Positions 50,333 to 64,000 of a stretch of 64,000 nucleotides of DNA are shown here, piece by piece. Location: positions 62,001-126,000 of the forward strand of contig CAIZWN010000015.1 in the NCBI GenBank assembly GCA_903936705.1, written 5' to 3'. The position numbers and the translations under genes are program-made. Below the pieces are notes generated by a model. That model worked only from the letters and a program-made list of their open reading frames with translations, did not search any database and had not been told where the DNA came from. Position 1 is the first letter of the stretch, and every line of letters begins with the position of its first letter. Origin of the DNA: an uncultured Myxococcales bacterium. Lineage in GTDB: Bacteria; Myxococcota_A; UBA9042; DTJE01.

Positions 50333-51178
50333 TCAGAAGCCGTCGCGCCCCTCTTCCATCAAACGCCCATACAGAAACGGCGGCAGAAAGCACGTCTTGT
50401 GGATGTCGGCACAGTAATAGCGGGTCGGCTGGACCGGAGGCTGAACCGGCGTTCGCAGCGACACTCCGTTAGTGCCGACTGCAAAACACCACCAGTTCCC
50501 GGCGTAGGTTGCAATCGGAGCCGTGTACAGGTCGGCGCACTTGAACGAAGCCAGCAATGACTGCTGGACCTCGCGAACAATCGGAAAGTGGAAATGCAGC
50601 GACTCCGACAGCGTGACAAAAGCACCGCCCGGCTTCAGGATCGCCCGCGCCCGCGCAAAGAAATCGGGAGTAAACAACGACTTTGCGAAGCCTACGATGT
50701 CGGTCGAATCCACCAGGATTGCGTCAGCCATGCCCACGAATTCCTCAAGAAATTGCGCACCGTCCATCGGGCAGTGCTGCACCCGAGGATCATCCAGACC
50801 CGACGCCACCGACGGAAAGAAGGCCTTCGTGACGCGGGTGACCTCCGGGTCTATGTCGACCAGATACACTTTCCTGATTGACGGATGCTTGACCACCTCG
50901 CGGATGACACCGCCGTCGCCTCCGCCAATGACGATGACGGTTTCCGGCGCCTCCATTGCGTGCAACGGCACGTGAGCCAGCATCTCGTGATAATAGAATT
51001 CGTCGCGCTCGGTAAATTGCACGACCCCATCCAGGATCAGCATACGCCCGAAAAACGGGTTCACGACAACGGCGAACTCCTGGTACGCGCTCTTCCCTCG
51101 GTACAGGACGTCCGTCACCTCGTAGGTGTACTGGATAGGGGCATAAGGGTCTTTTTCGAACAGACGCACGTCAGCCAT
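50333..51178 (-). CDS. speE: Polyamine aminopropyltransferase (spermidine synthase)
   Basis: 281-residue enzyme that transfers aminopropyl from decarboxylated SAM to putrescine. The GGGDGGVIREV nucleotide loop, LVDIDPEV, the acidic catalytic segment AILVDSTD and the N-terminal FGRMLILDGVVQFTERDEF all match. AGGGG precedes ATG 51178 by seven bases. No speD or arginine/ornithine decarboxylase is in the window. Confidence 0.94.
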   Translation of the reverse strand: MADVRLFEKDPYAPIQYTYEVTDVLYRGKSAYQEFAVVVNPFFGRMLILDGVVQFTERDEFYYHEMLAHVPLHAMEAPETVIVIGGGDGGVIREVVKHPSIRKVYLVDIDPEVTRVTKAFFPSVASGLDDPRVQHCPMDGAQFLEEFVGMADAILVDSTDIVGFAKSLFTPDFFARARAILKPGGAFVTLSESLHFHFPIVREVQQSLLASFKCADLYTAPIATYAGNWWCFAVGTNGVSLRTPVQPPVQPTRYYCADIHKTCFLPPFLYGRLMEEGRDGF

Positions 51179-51346: not shown

Positions 51347-52126
51347 TCAGGGCAGGCGGCTGAAAATCGCCTCGCCTTCCTTGCGCCACCAGGCCTCCCA
51401 AGCCTTGCGCTGGTCCGGAAGCTCGAAACTGCCGGTAAGATTACGCAATTGGTTGAAAAGGCTCTTCCGAAGTTCGACGTCGGGTTCGTCAAGAAATGGA
51501 AGTACAATCGGCAACGACTGCTTGACTGGCATGTTGTGCAGAGCGTAGTTGAACCCATGCCATCTGATCGGGTAGTCCGGCTGCTTCAAGGCCCAGCGGG
51601 TCCACTCCGAAGCATCTACACGGCCCTTGCCAAGAAAGGCCTGCAGCACCAGTGCCCGATCGTTTGCATCAACTGAAGCATTGCGAACGACATCCCTGAT
51701 CACCGCCTGGGTAGTCGCGGCGTCAGGATTGTCACCCTCGATCTCCATCAAAACGTCGGTAGCCCAACGCGCCGACAATGGATCAGCCAGCAACTTCAGA
51801 AGCTCACTACGGTTCTTTTGCGCTTTTAGCTGCAGAATTCTCTGAAGCTTCCTGGAAAGCAGCGCCTTCTTCGGATCCTCGGGGGGGGCCTCGCCACCCG
51901 TAACAGCCTCCGCCCCCGAGCCCGCAGCGCCAGAGGTTGCCTCGGGAGAGGATGCTGCACGCGACGACGCTTGGCCCCCGTCCGGCAGGGACCCCTTGCC
52001 ATCACCGGTAGTCGAGACCGCCAAAGACGATGGCGGAACGGCCGAATGCAAAACCAGCCATCCGGCCAGGCCAAGCGCCAATGCCCAGCCACAAAGGCCG
52101 AACCAGAATGTGGAACGTTTATTCAT
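51347..52126 (-). CDS. Membrane-anchored helical-repeat protein, unit 1
   Basis: 259 residues: one N-terminal hydrophobic anchor (about 7-27), a Ser/Gly/Ala/Pro-rich spacer to residue 85, then a helical domain that looks HEAT-like (SELLKLLADPLSARWATDVL ... RALVLQAFLGKGRVDASEW ... LPIVLPFLDEPDVELRKSL). It ends AWEAWWRKEGEAIF. It is clearly paralogous to the protein at 55126-55869 over the last 130 residues. It starts 6 bp after the fibre gene of unit 1 and so is its operon partner. There is no signature of a known enzyme. Periplasm-facing orientation is inferred from the single anchor. Confidence 0.75.
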   Translation of the reverse strand: MNKRSTFWFGLCGWALALGLAGWLVLHSAVPPSSLAVSTTGDGKGSLPDGGQASSRAASSPEATSGAAGSGAEAVTGGEAPPEDPKKALLSRKLQRILQLKAQKNRSELLKLLADPLSARWATDVLMEIEGDNPDAATTQAVIRDVVRNASVDANDRALVLQAFLGKGRVDASEWTRWALKQPDYPIRWHGFNYALHNMPVKQSLPIVLPFLDEPDVELRKSLFNQLRNLTGSFELPDQRKAWEAWWRKEGEAIFSRLP

Positions 52127-52132
52127 CTGGAG

Positions 52133-54841
52133 TTAACGTGACAAGCAGCAGGCCACCTTTGAACCGGTACCGGTCCCCAAAGCGTCGAAGGGATTCGATG
52201 CGGCCATCGTGGACTTGACAATCAGTCCACCGGTAGTGCCGGTAGTATCCGAAATCCAAACCAAATCCATGGAAGTAGTAGTCTCGCCCTGCTGGATGGC
52301 CTCACGCATCTCGGAATTCGAACAAAGATGCGCGCCATAAGCGCCAAACCGATCGCCACAATACTTAGCAGCCATTGACAATGTGTACGTAGCCTGAACG
52401 GACCGTGCGGAAATGCAGACACTACCCCGCTTCGCGAAAGCGATTGCAGCCAGCGTCTCGCCTGCATATGCGGGCGCGTTGACGGGCACAATCCCTGATA
52501 CCGTCGGACAACCCCGGTTAATCAAAGGCTTGGCACCCATGTCGATACCGTTCGAACCGGCGAACGCCAGCCAGGAGGAGGCCCCGCCACTTTGACTGAA
52601 GAACCCGCCATCCGAGCCGATCGCGATGCCATAGCCGGCCAGATTGTCGGGATTCGCGTCGATCGACGGCTTGGCTGCAACGGTCCCGACGTTTACCCAG
52701 CCGGCAGGCACGCCGAGGGAAAAAAGGTTGCCCCTGGCCACGACACCCGAGCGCGCGATGATTGTTGGCCCAGCCTCGACCTTTGTTGATTCGGCGTTCA
52801 GCGAACAGGAGGAGCCATTGGCTGCAACGTAGAGACTGGACTTGTCCATACGACGACCGTTACGCACCACGGTGCCTGCTGCGGTTGCGGCAGCAACCTG
52901 GGCAGTCGTACGGTTTGGCTGGCTTTCGCCACCGTAAGTCCCGGCGCCGGCTGCGGTATACGACGTAGATGAAATCTTGTCGTCAACGCGCTGGAAGGGA
53001 GAGCGATACGAGTAGGCCGTGTTGCTGAGAAGCCAGACAACAAAGGCATCGGTAGTGGCGCTGTACTGGTAGCCACCTACGAATGTGCCACCCGACTCGT
53101 GAATGTCCGCGTCACAAAAGTCCGAGCCGCTGCCCATGGGGGCATGGCAACGGAAGCGCGCCTGAACCGATGGCGACGTCGAACGAGTGATCTCCAGCAC
53201 AAACGGTCCGTCAGCCCAGCCGATATCCTTGAAAAATACCGGTACGAAATCAGTACCTACGCTAGCTGTAGGAGTAGTGAAGGTCCGAACATCGGGCTTC
53301 GACTTAATCACGTCTAACTCAAGCACCTTTGCGACCAACAAGCCGGTGTCCGGCCAGATCTGGATGCCGCCAGCAGCGGGGTCGGTGTAACTGCCACTGC
53401 CGGTGTTGTAGAAATGGATACCATGCGTGGTTGACGACCCGATCGAGACGTAATCGCCCGAGGGGGACTTGAAATCCAGGTTTGCCTGGGCCGCTCCCAT
53501 CAGAAGGGCAAGCGTCGAAGATCCTGTCGAACCGGCAACATTCAGCTTTGCGGTGCCGCTGAGGTTATCGATACCGACGGAAGTGCCATTATCGGAAATC
53601 TTGGACTCGACAAGCACCGTCGAAGCAGGCGATGTCAGGGCCGCACCTCGATACAGTTTGTTGGCAGCCAGGCCGCTGAGGCCGGTTCCGCCGTTCAAAA
53701 CCGGGATGATGCCCGACAGACCGATCGTCCCTGTCGTCTCGATCACGCCGCCAGACAGTGGAGCCTGGACCGTGAGCTTGGTGATGTTGCCCATGCTCAT
53801 CGGGGTACAGTCCCAGGTCTTCGCGGTATCGTTCCAAGTAAGGGTATTAGGAACATCTCCCACCTGGGGGCAGCCCGTGGCACGGCCGGTGCCGCCCTTG
53901 GTGTAGGGGACCAAGCCAACGCTGAGCGTCGTGGATTGGCCAAGTGTCACGGTACCAGTGGATACGTTAATGACGCCATCACCAGCCAGCACGATCGCTT
54001 TGTACTGCAGCATGTCGTTGGTGATGTTGCCGTTGCCGATCGAGATCGTGCCATCGGTGGTGATGACGGTCCCGTTCTGGTTGAAGCCAGCCCCAACGGT
54101 GAGCGACTTGACGGTACCGGTTCCAATCTCGTCCGGAGCGCAGACCCATTTCGGAATCAGGGGATTCGAAAGGTCAAACTTCATGACATTGTTTGTGCCG
54201 TTGCAATTGGTGGTGGCCAGCAAACCTGTATCCGGGTAGAGATTGATGTCGTGGAACTGAATCGTGTGGTCCAGAATCGCATCGGTGGTAATCGATCCGG
54301 TCTGAAGATTGTCCTGGGTCACAGTGTTCAACGCGAGGTCGCCGGTCAAACCACCACTGATGCAATGCGTCGGAGAACACTCGACATTCGAGGCCGACCC
54401 AGTCAATTCATCGCACTTGGCGGCAAGGTCAGCCGTGTTGGCCGTCCCAGCGGTCTGAGCGGTGATTGCGTACGGCACTGACACCAGAGGAACCCGGCCA
54501 GTGGGGGCGTCCGTGCTGCGATTGACCTCGAGGTAGATCTGCTTCTGAGCCTCGAGCTCGGCCATGACGCCGTCGGTGAACGGCCCCAGCAGTTCGTTGA
54601 AGACACCACCTACAATCGTCACCGAGCGTGACACACTGTAGATCGCCGTTCCTGACGATGCAGCCGCGAACAGCTTGAAGTCCACGCTGACCGAATACCC
54701 CTCAATCGAGGTACCGCCGGCATCACGAAGGACGCCTTGCACCGAGATATACCTCGGCACGCGCTGAACTTCCACCGCCTGGGCAGGCAGTGCAAGAGTC
54801 AGAAACAGACACGAGGCTGCGATCCACAGGGCTGTCTTCAT
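52133..54841 (-). CDS. Secreted fibre-like protein, unit 1
   Basis: 902 residues from ATG 54841 (GGAGG at seven bases). The signal peptide ends at PAQA near residue 22. The N-terminal domain (about 25-150) has the pattern YISVQGVLRDAGG ... VPLVSVPYAITAQTA, seen in many large secreted proteins of deltaproteobacteria and Bacteroidetes. The middle is beta-rich and resembles phage tail fibres, with repeated LxxGGTG motifs and PLSGG ... TGTIGL. The C-terminal domain has YGAHLCSNSEMREAI and ends in a vicinal Cys pair (KVACCLSR). An in-frame ATG exactly 20 codons upstream also exists in the paralogue, so a longer form is possible. Probably an adhesin or surface fibre. Confidence 0.8.
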   Translation of the reverse strand: MKTALWIAASCLFLTLALPAQAVEVQRVPRYISVQGVLRDAGGTSIEGYSVSVDFKLFAAASSGTAIYSVSRSVTIVGGVFNELLGPFTDGVMAELEAQKQIYLEVNRSTDAPTGRVPLVSVPYAITAQTAGTANTADLAAKCDELTGSASNVECSPTHCISGGLTGDLALNTVTQDNLQTGSITTDAILDHTIQFHDINLYPDTGLLATTNCNGTNNVMKFDLSNPLIPKWVCAPDEIGTGTVKSLTVGAGFNQNGTVITTDGTISIGNGNITNDMLQYKAIVLAGDGVINVSTGTVTLGQSTTLSVGLVPYTKGGTGRATGCPQVGDVPNTLTWNDTAKTWDCTPMSMGNITKLTVQAPLSGGVIETTGTIGLSGIIPVLNGGTGLSGLAANKLYRGAALTSPASTVLVESKISDNGTSVGIDNLSGTAKLNVAGSTGSSTLALLMGAAQANLDFKSPSGDYVSIGSSTTHGIHFYNTGSGSYTDPAAGGIQIWPDTGLLVAKVLELDVIKSKPDVRTFTTPTASVGTDFVPVFFKDIGWADGPFVLEITRSTSPSVQARFRCHAPMGSGSDFCDADIHESGGTFVGGYQYSATTDAFVVWLLSNTAYSYRSPFQRVDDKISSTSYTAAGAGTYGGESQPNRTTAQVAAATAAGTVVRNGRRMDKSSLYVAANGSSCSLNAESTKVEAGPTIIARSGVVARGNLFSLGVPAGWVNVGTVAAKPSIDANPDNLAGYGIAIGSDGGFFSQSGGASSWLAFAGSNGIDMGAKPLINRGCPTVSGIVPVNAPAYAGETLAAIAFAKRGSVCISARSVQATYTLSMAAKYCGDRFGAYGAHLCSNSEMREAIQQGETTTSMDLVWISDTTGTTGGLIVKSTMAASNPFDALGTGTGSKVACCLSR

Positions 54842-54935
54842 GCCAACACCTCCGATCCCACCGAACACCACCTTCGGAACGCATGTCCTACCGAGATTCA
54901 TCCGAATACCTCGCCTGGACGAGCCACGTCCGCCA

Positions 54936-54955
54936 ACCGTGCAAACAATTCACAG
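54936..54955 (-). promoter_or_regulatory. Conserved leader element, unit 1
   Basis: CTGTGAATTGTTTGCACGGT on the minus strand, 95 bp before the start codon. It differs at one base of 20 from the element before the unit 2 gene. GCACG within it can pair with CGTGGC about 10 nt downstream, leaving a bulge. Confidence 0.5.
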
Positions 54956-55094
54956 ACCGAAAGCCCGCCATACCGACGGCTACCAAAGGGCACCGACCCG
55001 CATCCCATCGCTGTCAAACGCCTTCCCGAGCCTGCGATCACGGGGGCGCCACCCGCAGGGCACGGCCCCGTTCCTTGGTATCAACGTCATGAAC

Positions 55095-55111
55095 AGCAAG
55101 TTGCGTACCAA
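55095..55111 (-). promoter_or_regulatory. Sigma-54 (-24/-12) promoter, unit 1
   Basis: TTGGTACGCAACTTGCT on the minus strand, against the consensus TTGGCACG-N4-TTGCW. The invariant GG and GC are ten bases apart, as required. Start of transcription is expected about 240 nt before the ATG at 54841. The surrounding gap (54842-55125) is non-coding. Confidence 0.75.
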
Positions 55112-55125
55112 GACAAGTTCAGCCT

Positions 55126-55869
55126 TCAGCGATTCCTGGAGCGACTCCATTCCTCGCCTTCGGTACGCCACCATGTTTCCCATAATTCAGGGTCGGGACC
55201 CAATTCCTGGACACCGGTTGTATCCTTGAGAAGGGACCATGCGGCCTCACGATTCGCATCAATCGGGTCACCAAGCATCGGAATTGCCAGGATGATGGCG
55301 CGCGAAATCGGAATGCCAAGCCTGGTATTGAAGGACTGACCGATTCCCACGCGTCGAATGGTCCATTCGGAACTCTGAATCGCCCACGGAATCCATTCCT
55401 CCGCGTCCACCAGCCGTTGATCGATCAACGATTGCAGCAGCAGGGCGCGACTCTCCCCGGCAAGATTGCCCTGTCGCACGGCATCCGTAAAAGCCTGGAG
55501 GGTCTCGGCGTCGATATCGCCCAGTTGCATCAGAGCCCCGGCTGCCATGTAGAAGGAATCGCGGTCCTTCAGAAGCGCGATCAGTGCGCCCCGGTCATGG
55601 CGAACACGGGCCTTGATAACCTCCTTCTGCCTGGCAGCGGCTACCGCCGGCGGGGTTTGTTCGTCAAAGATTATTTCCTCCCTGAAGCGTTCAGGGTCAT
55701 TCGGGGCTCGAATAGGTCTGACCTTGGACCGGGCGGGAACAACCGAAGTTGCAGCCGGCGACGGCTGTGCACGACGGGCATCGGCAACCAGCCAAAGGCA
55801 GGCGCCAACACCAGCCACAGCAATGGCCAGCAGCAGCAGCAGAACCCATGATTTACCCGAAAGTTTCAT
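55126..55869 (-). CDS. Membrane-anchored helical-repeat protein, unit 2
   Basis: 247 residues from ATG 55869, overlapping the fibre gene stop by one base (TGATG). One N-terminal membrane anchor (about 8-30), a variable spacer, then the same helical domain as unit 1 (LLKDRDSFYMAAGALMQLGD ... RALLLQSLIDQRLVDAEEW ... AIILAIPMLGDPIDANREA), ending WETWWRTEGEEW. Family otherwise unknown. GTG 55887 is an alternative start. Confidence 0.75.
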   Translation of the reverse strand: MKLSGKSWVLLLLLAIAVAGVGACLWLVADARRAQPSPAATSVVPARSKVRPIRAPNDPERFREEIIFDEQTPPAVAAARQKEVIKARVRHDRGALIALLKDRDSFYMAAGALMQLGDIDAETLQAFTDAVRQGNLAGESRALLLQSLIDQRLVDAEEWIPWAIQSSEWTIRRVGIGQSFNTRLGIPISRAIILAIPMLGDPIDANREAAWSLLKDTTGVQELGPDPELWETWWRTEGEEWSRSRNR

Positions 55870-58853
55870 CACAGAGAATAGCAGCACCTGAAACGCTGAA
55901 CATTTGTGACCGTGGCATCTGCGGTTCTCATTTCAGGATTGCCGTAGGTGCCACCTACGGTCCTGAGGCTGGTTGCTGGAGTTGCGCGCGGCTGCACTCC
56001 AACGACGGCCATGGCAACAGCGCCAGCCCCTGAAGTGCTCTGGTCGTTAAGCCAGACATCCTGGAAAAGGCCATACCAGGTGCCAAGGGCGGGGTCGGCG
56101 GTGGTGGTGGCGATGGCGGCACGAATCTCATCGGGCCCGCACATGTGAGCGCCTTCAACCAGGCCGCAGCTCTGAGCTGCAACTGAATAAGAGGCAAGCC
56201 CGGTGTACGGCGCCATGCAGACACCACCTCCGGCATATTGCGTCCAGCCACGGGGACAGCCGCGCTTGAGAGGGTATCCGTTCATGTCCAGCCCCTGCGC
56301 CCCCGTGAACGCAACATAATTACCGGACGGATTGTCATTGGTCATACTGGCGCGAGATACCAGGAGATATGGATCGGCACTGGCGTTTGAGTACGTGAAG
56401 AAACCGCCAGCTGCGCCAACCGTGAAGCCACCACCAGCAGTATTATCGGGATTCGAATCGATGGTTGCCTTCTTGTCCTTGTAGGACTGCGAGTCTCCCC
56501 CAACACCAGTGGTGGCTGCAGTGGTGGTTACCTTGCGGGCCCCGTAGTAACTGCCGGTCAGGTAGGGATCTGCCAAGGTCGACCCCGGGCTCGCCGCATA
56601 CCAAGGATACGATGCCTTAATCCCACCCAGGGCACTGAGCGGGACGGCGTTGACTTCGACCATGTATTTGTTGTCAGTACCAGCTGGAGTCACAACAGCC
56701 TCTGACTTAGTACCCGTGAACAGCACGTCAGACGCGCCAGGGGCGACCGTGAGGGCACCTTCCATCCGGATGCCGTTCGGTGCCACCACGCCCCACAGGG
56801 ATGCCGTGGAGTCCCATGGTCGCAGATTGACGGCTGCTAGACAGGCGCCCACGTCCTGCTTGACAACCAACTGGTTTGATCGGTACGTGTACGCCACGCC
56901 CCCCCTGAGATAGACGATCAGGCGCTTGGCTGAACTGTCGTGATAGTAGCCGGCAATAAAGCCATCCTGGATGGTCCCTGGAGAAACGGTCTTGCTGTCG
57001 TGGATTTCGGCACGGCAGAAATCGGAACCGCTGCTGGGAACCAAACCGTCGTGGCAGATGAACCGACTCTGAAGCGAACCGCTGGAACCGGCCATGGAGG
57101 CGGTGCGGTTGATCTCGAGGTCCATGGGACCTTCTGCCCAACCGCTGGTACCCGTGCCACTGAATACAACGTCGTCACTGAATGCCACGGCAATAAAGGG
57201 ACTGGCACCACATGTGGTGGGCGTCGTGAACGGCACCGATTCGAATTTCGCACGCAAGTTCCCCTGGAACGTGTGGGCGAACACGCGACCCTCCGCCGGG
57301 TAGAACTTGACGCCACCATCCGTAGCCGATGTGTGGGTGCCGACCACCTGGGTATTGTAGAACTGTATGCCGCCAACCGACGTCGAAGAACCTATCGAAA
57401 CAGTATCGCCGGTTCCCTTCATGACCAGGTTGGCAGCAGCAGCCCCAAGGAGCAGATTAAGGCCTTCGCTGCCCGATACGGTCAGTGCTCGGGCCTGGCC
57501 GCCAGCGTCCGTAGTAAACGTCGTGTTGATGCCGACACCATAATCGTCGGAATAGACCTGAGACTTCAGCATTGGCGAATCGACATCGCCCCGGTATATG
57601 TAACCTGGGTCCCACACACTCACACCGGTGCCGCCGTCGAAGGGACCAATGGTGCCAAGGCTGAGGACGCCAGCGCCTGATGTCAGAGGACTGGGCGTCA
57701 GGATCAGCGGATCAGTAGCGGACAGACTGCGAAGTGTCCCGACCTTGGAAGGGAGGCAACGCCATTCTCCGGTGTCCCAGGTAAGAATCGACCCGACGGG
57801 GCAACCGGTATCACGGCCGAGGCCGCCCAGACCAACACCGATCTTTGCTGCTATACCAATGGTCAGTGCGCTGGCGCCCAGGCTGATGGCTCCCCCGCCA
57901 GACAATCCGTCACCGGCATTGATGGTGATGGACGAATTTAGAAGCATGCTGTTCGTGATAGCGCCGGCAGAAATGCTGACGGTCCCTTCAGGTTGGGCCG
58001 CGTTGAGTTCGGGAATGACAGTAAGCGAAGGATTCTTGAGGGTGATCCCCGGGCCACTGGCCAGACGAACCAGCGTGCCGCCGCTGGTTTGATCGGAAAA
58101 ACAACCGAATGTCACGCCGTTCGACTTGATTATGCTTTTGTTGACACAACCCGAATTTACCAGGTCATCGAAAAGAATGGTCCCTGACTGGGGGGAAGTA
58201 CTTAAAAACTCGGTAGTCGTAACCGAACCCACCGCCATGTTGGAAGCCGTGATTGCGAAAGTTGAAACCCCGATGCCGGGGTCGGATTTGGTCGCGAGGT
58301 CGCCACTTGCGCCGCCATGAACGCAATTCGTGCAGATCAGGTTCTTGGCCGCAACGCCGTCTGACAGCGCAGTTCCCTGGACGCCACGAAGGGCCGAAGT
58401 CGCGGTCTGGGCCAACTGCGCGTTGACGGTGTAAGGAACGGAAATGACCGGCTTCCTCATGATCTCGCGACGGCTGGTATTGTCCAAATCGCAGGCGCGC
58501 CCGTCGTCGCAGACGGACATGCCAAGGTACGCCCCGGATTTACTGGGCCAATCCGTAACTACCGAGGTGTAATCGAACGTCAAATCGACGCTGAAGACAC
58601 CCGATTTCGGATAGACGGTTTTCGTGATGGCCCAGAAGGCGGGAGTTGCCTGATCCCCGTCCTCGTACATCTGGAAATAAAGTTCGTATCCGACATCTCT
58701 GTCTTCTACCAGGTAGAAGTCAGCGTTGCGCAAAACCCCCTGAACACTCAGAAACTTCGGTACCCCGAAGATCGGGTTGACGGCTCCGACCGGGGCTGGC
58801 AGGACCAGCACAAGGAAGAGGCAGGAGATTGCGATCCACTTTGCCGTCTTCAT
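55869..58853 (-). CDS. Secreted fibre-like protein, unit 2
   Basis: 994 residues from ATG 58853. Signal peptide to about residue 24 (MKTAKWIAISCLFLVLVLPA), nearly the same as in unit 1. The N-terminal domain (FLSVQGVLRNADF ... ISVPYTVNAQLA) and C-terminal domain (GAHMCGPDEIRAAI, terminal RFRCCYSL) match unit 1. The middle is beta-rich with GGTG/GGLG motifs, such as SIGSSTSVGGIQFYNT, aligned to SIGSSTTHGIHFYNT in unit 1. Other parts differ in sequence and length, with additional Cys pairs. Same upstream ATG as unit 1 at +20 codons. Probably a surface fibre or adhesin. Confidence 0.8.
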   Translation of the reverse strand: MKTAKWIAISCLFLVLVLPAPVGAVNPIFGVPKFLSVQGVLRNADFYLVEDRDVGYELYFQMYEDGDQATPAFWAITKTVYPKSGVFSVDLTFDYTSVVTDWPSKSGAYLGMSVCDDGRACDLDNTSRREIMRKPVISVPYTVNAQLAQTATSALRGVQGTALSDGVAAKNLICTNCVHGGASGDLATKSDPGIGVSTFAITASNMAVGSVTTTEFLSTSPQSGTILFDDLVNSGCVNKSIIKSNGVTFGCFSDQTSGGTLVRLASGPGITLKNPSLTVIPELNAAQPEGTVSISAGAITNSMLLNSSITINAGDGLSGGGAISLGASALTIGIAAKIGVGLGGLGRDTGCPVGSILTWDTGEWRCLPSKVGTLRSLSATDPLILTPSPLTSGAGVLSLGTIGPFDGGTGVSVWDPGYIYRGDVDSPMLKSQVYSDDYGVGINTTFTTDAGGQARALTVSGSEGLNLLLGAAAANLVMKGTGDTVSIGSSTSVGGIQFYNTQVVGTHTSATDGGVKFYPAEGRVFAHTFQGNLRAKFESVPFTTPTTCGASPFIAVAFSDDVVFSGTGTSGWAEGPMDLEINRTASMAGSSGSLQSRFICHDGLVPSSGSDFCRAEIHDSKTVSPGTIQDGFIAGYYHDSSAKRLIVYLRGGVAYTYRSNQLVVKQDVGACLAAVNLRPWDSTASLWGVVAPNGIRMEGALTVAPGASDVLFTGTKSEAVVTPAGTDNKYMVEVNAVPLSALGGIKASYPWYAASPGSTLADPYLTGSYYGARKVTTTAATTGVGGDSQSYKDKKATIDSNPDNTAGGGFTVGAAGGFFTYSNASADPYLLVSRASMTNDNPSGNYVAFTGAQGLDMNGYPLKRGCPRGWTQYAGGGVCMAPYTGLASYSVAAQSCGLVEGAHMCGPDEIRAAIATTTADPALGTWYGLFQDVWLNDQSTSGAGAVAMAVVGVQPRATPATSLRTVGGTYGNPEMRTADATVTNVQRFRCCYSL

Positions 58854-58945
58854 GCCAACACCTCCGGTCCCACGGAGCACCACCTGCCAGCCAGGAACTG
58901 CGCCGGGTTTCATCTAGACCCTGCAAGTACCAGCCACGTCCCGCG

Positions 58946-58965
58946 ACCGTGCAAAGAATTCACAG
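58946..58965 (-). promoter_or_regulatory. Conserved leader element, unit 2
   Basis: CTGTGAATTCTTTGCACGGT on the minus strand, 93 bp before the start codon; nearly identical in sequence and position to the unit 1 element. Confidence 0.5.
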
Positions 58966-59105
58966 TCGCACGCGGGGGTCGCCACAGGCGCAGTCTGGCG
59001 AGGAAGCGCCTGTTCCCGCCGTCGTCAAACGGCTTACGAACCCCGTCGGCCCGACATCCGAACCCGCCACCAGCGAGATCATGCCAAGGCAACCGATACC
59101 TGAAC

Positions 59106-59122
59106 AGCAAGTTGCGTACCAA
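59106..59122 (-). promoter_or_regulatory. Sigma-54 (-24/-12) promoter, unit 2
   Basis: TTGGTACGCAACTTGCT on the minus strand, identical to the unit 1 site, 253 bp before the start codon at 58853 and 23 bp after the activase stop. No sigma-54 activator gene is in the window. Confidence 0.75.
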
Positions 59123-59144: not shown

Positions 59145-62100
59145 TCAATAGCCGGTAACCGGCTCGCGGGAGTGGGATTGGCGGACCTGGTGAGCGAAGG
59201 CCTCCAGTCGATTGACGTTATGGAGCGACTGCAGCCCTTCGTAGACCAGCGTGCATGTCGCAATACCCGGGTTATCCTGGCGCATCGCAGGCAACAAGGC
59301 CGCTGTCACGGTACCAAGCATGCAATTGTGGCACATGGCGTTGACCACTCCCGAGGCCCCGGCCCGAGCCAATTGGTCAATGCGTGAGAGGTTCAATGAC
59401 AGGCACTTGTCTATCCAATGACTGGCGTATTTATCGGAAACACGAGAAACATCCGGGAACTGGCGTTCCTGCGGGGTACGAATCACTGCCGGGAACAGGC
59501 GGTCCACCATGGCACGCATGGCGGCGACGACGGGAACAACGGCGCGGGCTGCATTGCCGCCCAGGTACGATCCCTGGCGCAACATCTCGGCGTGGAGCTG
59601 TTCACCCCCCAGGAAAGACACATCCACCAGCGAACATGACGGCCAGACTTCGAATCCCATCCCGCGCAGGCGATCGAAAAGCCCGTCGTTGGCGTGCCGG
59701 TTGATGCGCGTGTAGGTATCGCCGATGACACCTATGCGGGGCAGGGTTCCGCTGGAAGGCGACAGGCGGACGGCGGCCATGCCGGCAATAGCCTGCCGCA
59801 AGGCCGGAAAGACGCGACGGCGCGCCAGACCATCCTCGACAAGGTCGATCGCTGCAGCGTAGGCGCTCGCCATCGCGCCAGAATCGTCATACGGCTCGGA
59901 TTCCACCTTCCACTTCAGAAGACGGTCGATGGCGTACATCCCGAGGGCCAGACGTGCGACGTAGCCACGTCCCAGCGGGGCCATGGTAGGCGGGTCGGCA
60001 ATGTTGACCAGGCTGACAGCCGACAGGCCGATGCGATCAAGAACCAGCTTCATCGCCACCATGAATTGAGGCAGAAGGCACGGTCCGAAGTACGAGGGAC
60101 CATAGAAACAGGCCTCATCCGGAACAAAGTCGGGTCGCCGACTGGCCTTCAGGAGGTCCCCCAGGAAGGACACGTAGGGATGGCACTCGCGCCCGTAGGC
60201 GTGGGACAGGCCTAGCTGCCACGACTCGTCGTCGGTGGGCGGCAGAAGGACGACCTTGCATCCCACGGATTTCAGGGCGCCAACGAACGCTCGCGAGTGG
60301 TCCGACAGATACGGCACCCAGTACGTATATTCGCGCAAGGGGCGCGACGGGACACCGGGAGGCGTGCCCCGGCTGCGTTCGGTCCTGCCGGCGGGATGCC
60401 CGGGTTCACGTTCGCGCCCTACGGTTCTGGAAAAGGCCTCCAGGCGAGTCACGAGGCCGGCCTCGGCCTGGTGGTCGTCGAATTCCAGCACGATATGCGG
60501 TGTATCGTGCAACTCGTCTTCCAGATATTGATCGACGAAGGCATCCGGGCCGCAGCCGAAGTTGGTGACAATCACGACAGACAGCGAAGGCGTGCGGCGT
60601 GCGATACGTGCCGCCTGAAGCTGCTGGCGGCCAAAACCCCACCTGACGCGAGCCCAGAAGTCGGGAAGTGGCTCGTCCTCGAGAGGCAGAAAGTCCAACG
60701 GAATCGGCTCGATTCCCAACGAAGTCAGCCGGCGAGCGAGGTTCAGATTGAGGCTGCGGTCCGATGTGTTGTACGGACGACCCAGAAGGACGGCACCTGG
60801 GCGACCCTCGTCTGCCAGCCTCTTCAGCAAGACACGACCCTCGGCCCTGCAGGCCAGAACGAATCGTTGCCGGGCCGCATCGGCCAGAAGGAAGGCATCT
60901 TCAACCTCCCGTCGCGGCACCGAAAGAATTTCGGACGCACTGGAAATCCAATGGTTTTTTTCGCCCGGAACCGGGTCCTCCAGCGTAAGCACTTCCACGT
61001 CAGGGTTTGTCTGTGCCAACTGGGCACGAACGACGTACGGTGCGGCCTGCGTATATGGACAGGCGTAGCGGTTGACTGTGTCCGACGGCGGCATGAAGAG
61101 ACGAAGGTGGGGCAGAAAAATACGACGGGCGCCACGATCCACCAGGTCATGGACGTGCCCGAAGAGGACCTTCACGGGCTGGCAGAATTCCTCGGGCACG
61201 CGGGAAAGGCCCAGTGCTGTCTTGTTGCGATCGGTGTGGCCCGACAGCTCGACACGATATCCGAGGGTCGTGAAAAAGGTTCGCCAGAAAGGGAGACTGT
61301 CGTGGAAGCCCAGGGCGAATGGAAACGCCAGGACGCCGCGATCGGTCGGGGGCGAAACAGGGAAACCCGAGTCAATGGCAGGGGATGTGCCAGATATTCC
61401 AGCACTTTCCATCAGCAATTGTTCACGGGTGGCGAACGCGTCCGAGGCCGCCACCGCGCCTTCGCCGCCCTTTTCGAAACGATCGCAAATGCTGCCGAAA
61501 AAGGCAGTGCGACCATTGTCCGATCTGACCTGCTGAATCTCGCAAAGATTTTCGCACGAGGCACATTCGAACGCCTTTATGGCGACGTTGGTACCGGGCG
61601 ATTCCAGCCCGCAAAAGCCGGATTTCCCAGGAAACCGGATTGCCGAATCCCGGGCAATCAGGGCGGCGCCCCAGGCACCGGAAGTCTCGGGATGAGGGTG
61701 CAGTGTCACCGGGCGGCCCAAGAGGCTTTCAAAGGCGGCATGAACAGCCTGGTTTCGGGCAACGCCACCCTGGAAGACAATACGCGCGCCCACTGGCCTG
61801 GAACCCACGACCTTGTCGAAGTAGTTGCGAGCGACCGATATTGCCAGACCGGCGCAGAGATCGGCCGCGGGGACTCCGTGCTGAAGATGGTGAACCAGAT
61901 CGGAGTCCATGAAGACCGTGCAACGACTGCCCAGGCGAACCGGCGAGCCCGAAGAAAGGGCTGCATTCGCGAAGTCACGGCAGATGTCGATGCCAAGGCG
62001 GCCAGCCTGCTCCTCCAGAAAGGCGCCGGTTCCAGCAGCACAGGCCCGGTTCATCTGAAAGCGGGCGACACGTCCGCCGTGCAGCGAGATGTATTTCGCG

Positions 62101-63389
62101 TCCTGGCCGCCGATCTCGAAGATCGTGTCGGTGTCGGGAGCGAAGTGGACGGTCGAACGTGCCTGGGCCGTAATCTCGTCCACCACATCGTCGGCGCCGC
62201 TGAGATTCTGAGCAAGATGTCTTCCGGATCCAGTTGTTACGCATCGGGAAATGGTCATGCCTGACGGGGTCTGCCGGCGAATATCCTCAAGAACCGCACG
62301 CACCGCATCGACAGGCCGACCGGCGGTGGGAAGGTAGGCCGAGGCGACCAGGCGATGATTGCCGTCAATGACGACTGCCTTTGTGCTGACCGAGCCGCAG
62401 TCGAGGCCCAGGAATGCGTTTTCGGTTGTCTCCCGTGCCGAGGCTGGCTGAACGACCACGGGGCAAGAAGGGGCGACAAGGGGTTTCAGGCATGAGGGGC
62501 GCTGGTCGATTGTCCCCTGCGACGGCACAAGGGCGGCAAGGGCTGCCAGCGCGACCGGTTTCGCAAAGGGATTCTCGCGGGCGACAAGAGCACCGCCCAA
62601 GGCGCCCATCACCCTGTGCAGGCGAGGAACCACCAGGTCGCTGTCGCCCAATTGGAGGATCTCGCGCAGCGCGCGAACCACGCCAGGATTCGAGGCGACA
62701 CCACCCTGAAAGAGGATCGGCGGCTTCGGAGCACGACCGTGGCACAGGCTCGCCAGATACGTACGGACCAGGGCAAAGCACAGTCCGGCGATGATCTCGT
62801 CCGGAGGGCAGGCCCGTTGCTGTAGGTGGATCATGTCTGTCTTGGCGAACACCGAGCAACGGCCAGCCATTCGCGCTGGCCTGCGGGCAGAACCGGCAGA
62901 AGCGCCGAATGCCTCGATAGACAAGCCCAGCCTCTCGGACATCTGGTCCAGAAACGCGCCTGTGCCCGCGGCGCAAAGTTCGTTGAAGGCATGTTCGTCC
63001 ACGAATGGGCGTCCCGCTTCGTTCCGGCCGATACGAATGAACTTCGAGTCCTGACCGCCAATCTCGACGACACTATTGACGTCCGGATGCAGGGTCCACG
63101 CCGCCTGCGCGTGAGCCACAATCTCGTTGATGGTCGCACACCCAAGCGACCCTGCCAGCAGTTCCTTCCCCGAGCCGGTGACTGCCGCCCCCGCAACTTC
63201 CATTCCGGCGGGGAGGCTGGAAAGCGCCTCTTGAAAGAGCCCGATTACAGCCTGGATTGGCTTGCCGTGCGTGCGACGATATGCATCGAATCGGACATCG
63301 CCACCTTCGGTCAGAACCACCATCTTGACACTGACCGAACCGATGTCGATGCCAAGCGTGTCCAATCGGGCCTCCGGGATTTCAACCAT
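59145..63389 (-). CDS. Fused acyl-CoA dehydratase activase (two ASKHA domains plus DUF2229/HgdB-like part)
   Basis: 1414-residue protein of the BcrA/BadF/HgdC ATPase family in its long form. ASKHA domain 1 (about 10-270) has LGIDIGSVSVKMVVL, EIGGQDSKFI, and cluster cysteines in ELCAAGTGAFL (Cys139) and GRCSVF (Cys178). Domain 2 (about 325-625) repeats these: LGLDCGSVSTKAVV, EIGGQDAKYI, Cys450 and Cys490. The rest is DUF2229-like, followed by a dehydratase-subunit-like region with CASCENLC, NFGCGPDAF and CHNCMLG. Known relatives pass low-potential electrons to a partner cluster using ATP and are oxygen-sensitive. No dehydratase or CoA-transferase gene is adjacent, so the partner is unknown. 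ATG 63389 is chosen to fit the domain start. Confidence 0.88.
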   Translation of the reverse strand: MVEIPEARLDTLGIDIGSVSVKMVVLTEGGDVRFDAYRRTHGKPIQAVIGLFQEALSSLPAGMEVAGAAVTGSGKELLAGSLGCATINEIVAHAQAAWTLHPDVNSVVEIGGQDSKFIRIGRNEAGRPFVDEHAFNELCAAGTGAFLDQMSERLGLSIEAFGASAGSARRPARMAGRCSVFAKTDMIHLQQRACPPDEIIAGLCFALVRTYLASLCHGRAPKPPILFQGGVASNPGVVRALREILQLGDSDLVVPRLHRVMGALGGALVARENPFAKPVALAALAALVPSQGTIDQRPSCLKPLVAPSCPVVVQPASARETTENAFLGLDCGSVSTKAVVIDGNHRLVASAYLPTAGRPVDAVRAVLEDIRRQTPSGMTISRCVTTGSGRHLAQNLSGADDVVDEITAQARSTVHFAPDTDTIFEIGGQDAKYISLHGGRVARFQMNRACAAGTGAFLEEQAGRLGIDICRDFANAALSSGSPVRLGSRCTVFMDSDLVHHLQHGVPAADLCAGLAISVARNYFDKVVGSRPVGARIVFQGGVARNQAVHAAFESLLGRPVTLHPHPETSGAWGAALIARDSAIRFPGKSGFCGLESPGTNVAIKAFECASCENLCEIQQVRSDNGRTAFFGSICDRFEKGGEGAVAASDAFATREQLLMESAGISGTSPAIDSGFPVSPPTDRGVLAFPFALGFHDSLPFWRTFFTTLGYRVELSGHTDRNKTALGLSRVPEEFCQPVKVLFGHVHDLVDRGARRIFLPHLRLFMPPSDTVNRYACPYTQAAPYVVRAQLAQTNPDVEVLTLEDPVPGEKNHWISSASEILSVPRREVEDAFLLADAARQRFVLACRAEGRVLLKRLADEGRPGAVLLGRPYNTSDRSLNLNLARRLTSLGIEPIPLDFLPLEDEPLPDFWARVRWGFGRQQLQAARIARRTPSLSVVIVTNFGCGPDAFVDQYLEDELHDTPHIVLEFDDHQAEAGLVTRLEAFSRTVGREREPGHPAGRTERSRGTPPGVPSRPLREYTYWVPYLSDHSRAFVGALKSVGCKVVLLPPTDDESWQLGLSHAYGRECHPYVSFLGDLLKASRRPDFVPDEACFYGPSYFGPCLLPQFMVAMKLVLDRIGLSAVSLVNIADPPTMAPLGRGYVARLALGMYAIDRLLKWKVESEPYDDSGAMASAYAAAIDLVEDGLARRRVFPALRQAIAGMAAVRLSPSSGTLPRIGVIGDTYTRINRHANDGLFDRLRGMGFEVWPSCSLVDVSFLGGEQLHAEMLRQGSYLGGNAARAVVPVVAAMRAMVDRLFPAVIRTPQERQFPDVSRVSDKYASHWIDKCLSLNLSRIDQLARAGASGVVNAMCHNCMLGTVTAALLPAMRQDNPGIATCTLVYEGLQSLHNVNRLEAFAHQVRQSHSREPVTGY

Positions 63390-63502
63390 GCTACCTGCAG
63401 GAAAGTGTCGGAGCAAGACAGGGAAAGGAATTCGGGATGCTGGACGCCGAATTCCGGATTCGGGTTGAACCGGGAACAAGAGGGCGATGTGCCCTTGGGA
63501 AA

Positions 63503-63532
63503 TTGATCCTTTCTGCCGACCGGACGTACAAT
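63503..63532 (+). promoter_or_regulatory. Predicted promoter of the gene at 63562
   Basis: TTGATC (63503-63508), 18-bp spacer, TACAAT (63527-63532), about 30 bp before the start codon, in the 172-bp divergent gap with the activase gene. Confidence 0.45.
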
Positions 63533-63561
63533 CCCAGCGGCTTCCCAGGGTGGACTGTCGG

Positions 63562-64000
63562 ATGAATTCCTTCGTACGAAATACCGGCCCCATGGCTACA
63601 AGCGGACTAATGGTGGCGATGGGAGTCCTGCTGGCTGCTGCCAGTGCTTCGGCTCAATCAGGGGCGGTTGTCGCGGTGTTTGACGTTGATGCGCGGGATA
63701 TCGACCTTCCGGCGCCTACGCTGGATGCCATGGCCGATTACATCTGCAAATCGTTGACTACGGCGGGGTTTCAGGTGATCCCGCGCCAGGTTCTGGCCCG
63801 CACGATTGCCGCCCGCAAGGGTCCCAAGAAGGACGGGTGCAAGGATCTGAACTGTCAAATGGATGCGGCGCGACGGGCGAAGGCTGAAAAGTCGTTGTCG
63901 ATCCGTGTGGTCAAGGTTGGCGAGACCTGTCGATTTCTGGTCACGCTTTACGACATCGGCAGCCAGGCCAGCGAGGCTGCAGGAATGGCGGCAGGTGGAT
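63562..64000 (+). CDS. Exported protein of a PEGA/CsgG-like deltaproteobacterial type, truncated at the window edge
   Basis: 146 codons lie in the window. The signal peptide ends near ASASA (residue 31); ATG 63592 is an alternative start. The mature start AVVAVFDVDARD, then an amphipathic stretch (ADYICKSLTTAGFQVIPRQVL) and the block KKDGCKDLNCQMDAARRAKAEKSLSIRVVKVGETC, match a pattern I associate with exported proteins that carry PEGA domains further on. The C-terminal part is missing, so the assignment is tentative. Confidence 0.65.
   Translation, partial: MNSFVRNTGPMATSGLMVAMGVLLAAASASAQSGAVVAVFDVDARDIDLPAPTLDAMADYICKSLTTAGFQVIPRQVLARTIAARKGPKKDGCKDLNCQMDAARRAKAEKSLSIRVVKVGETCRFLVTLYDIGSQASEAAGMAAGG

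Follow-up and report, generated by a model that had tools for sequence, protein, structure and literature searches.

In a 64,000-nucleotide stretch of a contig from an uncultured Myxococcales bacterium (CAIZWN010000015.1, forward-strand positions 62,001 to 126,000; this whole stretch is called the window below), two tandem two-gene units occupy positions 59122-51347 on the minus strand, each consisting of a gene for a long fibre-like protein followed by a gene for a smaller companion. Going by domain profiles, the fibres are remote relatives within the MAT superfamily of Bdellovibrio fibres, i.e., a new branch of a known kind of fibre, and they end in a C-type-lectin-like tip. The companion is a predicted membrane-tethered HEAT-type solenoid whose pairing with such a fibre is, as far as we can tell, undescribed. 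The domain homologies, the gene linkage and the promoter motif reported below come directly from computation. To the reading of the whole locus as tandem sigma-54 operons, each encoding a MAT-type lectin-tipped fibre together with a HEAT-repeat assembly or export chaperone, we give a probability of roughly one half. The host draft genome comprises 4.85 Mb in 84 contigs and is 96% complete. The four genes, in window positions, are:

55869-58853, minus strand: fibre A, 994 amino acids (aa) from an ATG with GGAGG before it; a longer open reading frame (ORF) starts at 58913
55126-55869, minus strand: companion A, 247 aa, predicted N-terminal membrane anchor and HEAT solenoid, with a possible lipobox-like GVGAC
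52133-54841, minus strand: fibre B, 902 aa from an ATG with GGAGG before it; a longer ORF starts at 54901
51347-52126, minus strand: companion B, 259 aa, predicted N-terminal membrane anchor, low-complexity linker and HEAT-like alpha-solenoid

All four ORFs were confirmed, and with them the arrangement that a first reading of the bare sequence (the original prediction) had described, namely two tandem units of a signal-peptide-bearing fibre and a membrane-anchored helical-repeat partner in the same gene order. The junction sequences agree as well: the stop codon of fibre A overlaps the ATG of companion A by one base (TGATG), and 6 bp separate fibre B from companion B (TAA CTCCAG ATG). For both fibres the second ATG (58853 and 54841) is the better start, because GGAGG lies 8 nt upstream of it and the signal peptide begins immediately. 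The two fibres align over their full length (BLASTP E 7e-76; 38% identity), and the two companions share 30% identity overall (BLASTP E 3e-24, 31% over 183 aa).

Searches with the whole fibres returned nothing usable from Pfam, PHROGs or PDB sequences, and a scan of genome contigs with whole fibre B gave no match. The homologies lie in the two terminal domains:

58404-58781, minus strand: fibre A N-domain (MAT_N-like base domain), from the alignment with 46 relatives; homologous to the fibre B N-domain
54407-54781, minus strand: fibre B N-domain, top NCBIfam match Bdello_MAT_N, E 6.9e-6
55872-56270, minus strand: fibre A C-type-lectin-like tip, from sequence profiles
52136-52522, minus strand: fibre B C-type-lectin-like tip, from sequence profiles

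The N-domain spans approximately residues 45-170 and has homologues in 35 of the 53 genomes searched, with up to 11 per genome. The sole curated model to fit it is NCBIfam Bdello_MAT_N (NF053851), which matches 32 of 47 N-domain relatives; it has matches in 34 of the 52 class genomes, as many as 35 in a single genome, and in 0 of 14 control genomes. The model's cut-off of 60 bits is not reached by the isolated fibre B N-domain, which scores 26 bits, and no genome of the class passes it. Since all survey scores fall below that cut-off, the window fibres belong to a remote branch of the superfamily, outside the Bdellovibrio MAT_N subfamily. The superfamily was named in 2024 for fibres of Bdellovibrio bacteriovorus, in all 21 of which the N-domain directly follows the signal peptide, and 13 of which end in Peptidase_S74 (PMC10769870). 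Some of the N-domain relatives found here also end in Peptidase_S74 (24.6 bits at locus L030, against a cut-off of 22, and 20.1 bits, slightly under it, at L031). Separately, fibres with the same N-domain at two further loci (L038 and L039) show similarity, below cut-off, to the model of AgmC, a gliding protein of myxobacteria (E 6e-18 and 6e-19).

The tip is approximately 130 aa long and follows the pattern CP-x-G ... C ... A-x-x-x-C ... H-x-C-x-x-x-E ... W ... CC. Of 379 genomes of the phylum searched with a four-sequence profile, 25 contain it. When a 22-member profile of the tip was compared to PDB, nearly all matches were C-type lectins, and the chain 8oks_B was covered from one end to the other (positions 5-108 of the 111 in the profile and 8-116 of the 118 in the chain; E 1.9e-6). 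This structure, 8OKS, is the C-type-lectin tip of the MAT fibre Bd2740, residues 518-627 (PMC10769870, data availability). The window tips are unmatched by Pfam, and only 1 of the 22 tips reaches E 0.0055 with Lectin_C (PF00059). By profile comparison, then, the fibre C-terminus is a C-type-lectin-like tip homologous to that of Bd2740 and, because of this homology and by analogy with the MAT fibres, it is probably the distal, exposed, ligand-binding end. In two further genomes (G098 and G225; loci L196 and L197), a single protein joins three modules of different adhesin types, namely a domain resembling MAT_N, a collagen-like shaft of Gly-X-Y and a C-type-lectin tip.

The view of the products as surface-fibre-like proteins is supported. 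The accompanying proposal, in which the two ends serve as assembly or export interfaces and the exposed part lies in the middle, is not supported: the N-domain does match a MAT base, but the C-terminus is the probable binding tip. The proposed pattern of common ends around a divergent middle is likewise borne out only in part. In the signal peptide, fibres A and B share 67% of their residues; the N-domain has 31% identity, the shaft 30-47%, residues 681-814 of fibre A 28%, the pre-tip segment 47% and the tip 35%. The most divergent stretch (681-814) thus sits immediately before the pre-tip segment and the tip, but conservation is not limited to the ends.

Each window companion has a basic start, one hydrophobic N-terminal segment, a low-complexity linker and a helical domain. 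For companion B, AlphaFold2 (AF2) predicts an alpha-solenoid of ten helices after the anchor, with a mean predicted local distance difference test (pLDDT) score of 73.6 that is mostly above 80 from approximately residue 90. The best Foldseek neighbours of this model are alphaRep and armadillo repeats (probability up to 1.0, but E 0.04-0.2), and a search with the companion profile likewise leads to designed HEAT alphaReps. The A2 profile retrieves a companion in another genus of the window's family (G007:C94; E 1.1e-6, hhalign probability 93.6%), from which the chain of homologues continues to G046 and then to G370 and G367 (E 5e-17 and 8e-20). All 8 of the fibre-linked homologues tested, plus that of G007:C94, score above the Pfam HEAT_2 cut-off. 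Every companion is predicted to be exported, by a transmembrane signal anchor (window, G007, G046, G370, G367), as a lipoprotein (G185, G098, G225) or by a cleavable signal peptide (G076). Companion B also matches LcrE/SctW, but at a score far under the cut-off (E 5e-4) that we read as coincidence between helical proteins, and the one weak PHROGs match of companion A is to a PHROG of unknown function (E 6e-4).

Linkage was counted on the genes directly downstream of fibres, 24 lectin-tipped and 47 others with this N-domain. A HEAT gene comes next after 10 of the 24 lectin-tipped fibres and after at most 1 of the 47 others (Fisher p 4e-5, or 3e-4 without the window pair; these values come from related sequences without phylogenetic correction and are guides rather than exact probabilities). 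The ten cases are the two of the window, unrecognised as HEAT by Pfam, and eight that Pfam recognises (G046, G370, G367, G007:C332, G185, G076, G098 and G225). Counting both companions and HEAT analogues, the arrangement is found behind lectin-tipped fibres in 7 genera and 5 families of Myxococcota. In G046, from another family of the class, and in G370 and G367, from outside the class, the companion follows a lectin-tipped fibre across the same TGATG junction as in window unit A. A second HEAT type, with a lipoprotein signal or cleavable signal peptide, stands behind the lectin-tipped fibres of G185, G076, G098 and G225, and in G007:C332 a weaker HEAT relative lies approximately 515 bp behind one. 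The shafts of the HEAT-linked fibres differ, being either beta-rich or, in G098 and G225, collagen-like. The S74-type fibres of the window's own family, which share the N-domain, have no HEAT companion. The companion thus follows the tip and not the base domain, as the N-domain is also carried by fibres without a HEAT gene. Across the ten pairs, companion identity correlates with tip identity (rho 0.52, permutation p 0.0016), which would fit co-evolution. The expected link between the helical-repeat gene and fibre genes therefore holds well beyond this genome, in the loci of relatives.

Five more lectin-tipped fibres precede TPR solenoids, bringing those with some helical-repeat gene next to 15 of 24. 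These are L150, L151, L205 and L206 (genus g196) and L198 (G139), and the TPR gene of G139 encodes a membrane-anchored protein and overlaps the stop codon of its fibre, as if it were a substitute solenoid in the companion's position. Other neighbours were seen next to different fibres. In G025 and G034, the start of a gene for a secreted TPR_19-repeat protein (L161:2090-3067 and L183:2188-3156) overlaps the stop codon of a fibre that lacks the lectin tip. In Acidobacteria-type and Raymondbacteria loci, a different secreted companion of 170-181 aa directly follows a fibre with the same N-domain (L084:9832-10371, L090:9532-10074 and L086:8174-8683).

Because the companion follows the lectin tip even where the shaft is collagen-like, while the N-domain is shared by fibres without it, it most likely works on the tip end or on the assembly of that end. 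A chaperone acting in trans is favoured because the S74 fibres have their own intramolecular chaperone and no HEAT neighbour. The fibre would be exported by the Sec route, held at the cell surface by its N-domain and extended by a long beta-rich shaft, and its disulphide-rich C-type-lectin-like tip would bind a target, e.g., a glycan on another cell. The companion, a membrane-tethered HEAT solenoid predicted to face the periplasm, would be placed beside the newly exported fibre by translational coupling at the TGATG junction, and would be a chaperone dedicated to the assembly or export of that fibre, acting in the folding or trimerisation of its tip end or as an escort for it. It would thereby take over in trans the part of the S74 intramolecular chaperone, which lectin-tipped fibres lack. 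The surface display of the fibre, its trimerisation and its binding of a ligand are, like the companion's role as a chaperone, what we infer here. We advance more tentatively the generalisation that a HEAT (elsewhere TPR) solenoid represents a new class of trans-acting assembly or export factor for MAT-type fibres, one that substitutes for the S74 chaperone.

The original prediction had left the companion as a dedicated anchor or export factor, and of these two, linkage and tip-tracking favour export or assembly. As an anchor, the companion would be a dock holding the fibre base at the envelope, i.e., the surface element bound by MAT N-domains. In favour of this, the surface partner of the MAT N-domain is stated to be unidentified (PMC10769870), and the companion is always predicted to be exported and is paired with a fibre. 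We nevertheless consider it rather unlikely, in view of the many fibres that share the N-domain without a HEAT gene, the companion's adherence to the tip class, and the form in G076, which has a cleavable signal peptide alone and no predicted membrane attachment.

Several observations weigh against the chaperone reading or parts of it. It is by inference that a chaperone is favoured over an anchor. The AF2 model of the tip, built from two sequences, is poor (pLDDT 35), and the lectin fold rests on sequence profiles. Likewise, Pfam HEAT models miss both window companions, and the companion of G007 fails to find them in a single-sequence search; they are putatively assigned to HEAT from the AF2 model and the profile chain through G007. 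The companion in G007:C94 lies 54 bp behind an N-domain fibre without a recognised lectin tip, the sole possible HEAT case among the 47. The HEAT companion is missing behind approximately half of the lectin-tipped fibres, which are followed in some cases by a TPR solenoid and in others by none; it is therefore not strictly required, and HEAT may be one of several solutions. Finally, the correlation between companion and tip could also be explained by shared vertical descent.

The control regions of the two units contain the following:

59101-59122, minus strand: sigma-54-type promoter of unit A, TGGTAC-N5-TTGCT as -24/-12 elements; same as unit B
55090-55111, minus strand: sigma-54-type promoter of unit B, same sequence as unit A
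58932-58965, minus strand: conserved leader block of unit A, 34 bp, CTGTGAATTCTTTGCACGGTCGCGGGACGTGGCT, from the alignment with the unit B leader
54922-54955, minus strand: conserved leader block of unit B, 34 bp, from the alignment with the unit A leader

The same promoter and leader spacing had been claimed for both units, and indeed an identical 22-bp element, TTGGTACGCAACTTGCTGTTCA, precedes each of them, 268 and 269 nt from the ATG. In both, the motif has one mismatch to the consensus TGGCAC-N5-TTGCW and the right spacing. The element occurs in just 2 copies in the 4.85 Mb genome with 3 mismatches tolerated, and the pattern TGGNACNNNNNTTGCW has 2 matches within the window versus 0.31 expected by chance. 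The same genome encodes rpoN. Judged by its motif, this element common to both units is a promoter of the sigma-54 type, predicted to depend on RpoN. Within the leaders, the 34-bp block and the ribosome-binding and start region are kept in a diverged background; as neutral sites should be saturated at 30-38% protein identity, these blocks look selected or gene-converted. We rejected a known RNA element in the leader (the 34-bp block has no Rfam match, and leader folding energies are unremarkable) and also a motif common to other fibre genes, the block being absent from all other fetched loci with up to 8 mismatches tolerated. The reading of the locus as duplicated operons would have each two-gene copy transcribed from its own sigma-54-type promoter, the promoter and expression signals staying fixed after duplication while both proteins diverged together, with the outcome of two fibres of different specificity under a single regulatory signal.

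A sigma-54-type promoter implies an activator-gated signal, and solenoids are general binding scaffolds, so that the companion might instead be a signalling or regulatory partner, e.g., a sensor in the periplasm that registers fibre occupancy or unassembled fibre and feeds a sigma-54-dependent response. This seems improbable, as the units contain neither a cytoplasmic signalling domain nor a regulator gene and the motif is missing upstream of most other fibres. Sigma-54 control was also rejected as a rule for the whole fibre family: sites scoring at least 11 of 12 were found in 4 of 107 fibre upstream regions versus 0 on the opposite strand, which is suggestive only; such sites, with 11 or 12 of the 12 consensus positions, precede N-domain fibres in L009, L083, L035 and L070.

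It is also quite unlikely that the pairing is a lineage effect, in which HEAT genes that chanced to be downstream of fibre genes were duplicated together with them, without functional coupling. HEAT proteins are common in these genomes, and the ten linked cases include related genera in a test without phylogenetic correction; against this stand the spread over seven genera and five families with differing shafts, the recurring stop/start overlaps, and the absence of HEAT genes behind at least 46 of the 47 other fibres. In phages, fibre and chaperone genes are arranged as pairs in which a small helper gene lies directly 3' of the fibre gene, the layout also seen here. That the units derive from a prophage tail fibre and its assembly protein is nonetheless very improbable despite the resemblance of MAT fibres to phage fibres (PMC10769870), since the fibres carry Sec signal peptides, cellular genes flank the units in the window, and no phage relative of the fibres was found in PHROGs, by tblastn of 50,697 phage genomes or in IMG/VR, a check that the fibre/anchor description survives. 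The flanks are a 1,482-aa ORF at 59145-63593 and a spermidine-synthase-like gene, identified by inspection, at 50333-51178.

The 2024 description presents MAT fibres as the kit with which Bdellovibrio recognises its prey (PMC10769870); its main text mentions no HEAT companion and does not use the word "operon". The earlier statement that no named system has this composition thus fails for the fibre, which joins that superfamily, and stands for the companion, which is absent from that description as far as we found. No published description of the fibre/HEAT pairing was found in the open literature (subscription papers and preprints were outside the scope), where combinations of MAT, C-type lectin, HEAT and Myxococcota led to the Bdellovibrio work and unrelated papers only. 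Across Myxococcota, remote relatives of the MAT fibres are widespread (as many as 35 N-domain matches in a genome), some of them C-type-lectin-tipped, and the locus names a candidate accessory protein for assembling or holding such fibres, one that follows the tip type across lineages. If the proposed role is true, the companion would be the first accessory protein assigned to the MAT fibre superfamily. The duplicated unit also offers a clean natural case of fixed promoters with diverging recognition proteins.

Phage tail-fibre chaperones of the T4 gp38 and lambda/Mu Tfa type are encoded 3' of the fibre and are specific to its distal end. The window companion resembles them as a small helper encoded immediately downstream, by functional analogy alone; they are cytoplasmic, whereas the companion is predicted to be membrane-tethered and periplasmic, and no relation in sequence or fold was found. 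Collagen-like adhesins (Scl/Lcl) share a collagen-like shaft with the HEAT-linked, lectin-tipped fibres of G098 and G225, but the window shaft is beta-rich, and the N-domain and tip are unrelated to Scl/Lcl. The S74-ending fibres of the same Myxococcota family (L030, L031) have the same N-domain type as the window fibres; they differ in carrying their own C-terminal S74 intramolecular chaperone and in having no HEAT companion, the next gene at L031-type loci being, unlike in the window, a kinase-like APH-fold gene. At this family's S74-type loci (L031, L032, L079, L080, L083), the order is fibre, APH-fold kinase and nucleotidyltransferase (AmgK/MurU-like by appearance), and some (L031, L032, L083) also contain a divergent lipoprotein gene.

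The closest counterpart of the window tips is that of Bd2740 (PDB 8OKS), likewise the C-terminal C-type-lectin tip of a MAT fibre, but window-type tips add a strong W-x-D...DD-x-A-L...N...CC conservation, and Bd2740 is short (627 aa) compared to the window fibres (994 and 902 aa). Across the MAT superfamily, the tips vary and have adhesive folds of the S74, TNF-like and C-type lectin kinds. With the Bdellovibrio MAT fibres as a whole, the window fibres share a signal peptide followed by a conserved beta-rich N-domain of approximately 110-130 aa, and a mosaic build of 600-1,150 aa with variable C-terminal tips and many copies per genome in relatives. They differ in coming from another phylum, with a remote homology in which all matches are below 60 bits, and in having a HEAT companion directly downstream and a sigma-54-type promoter.

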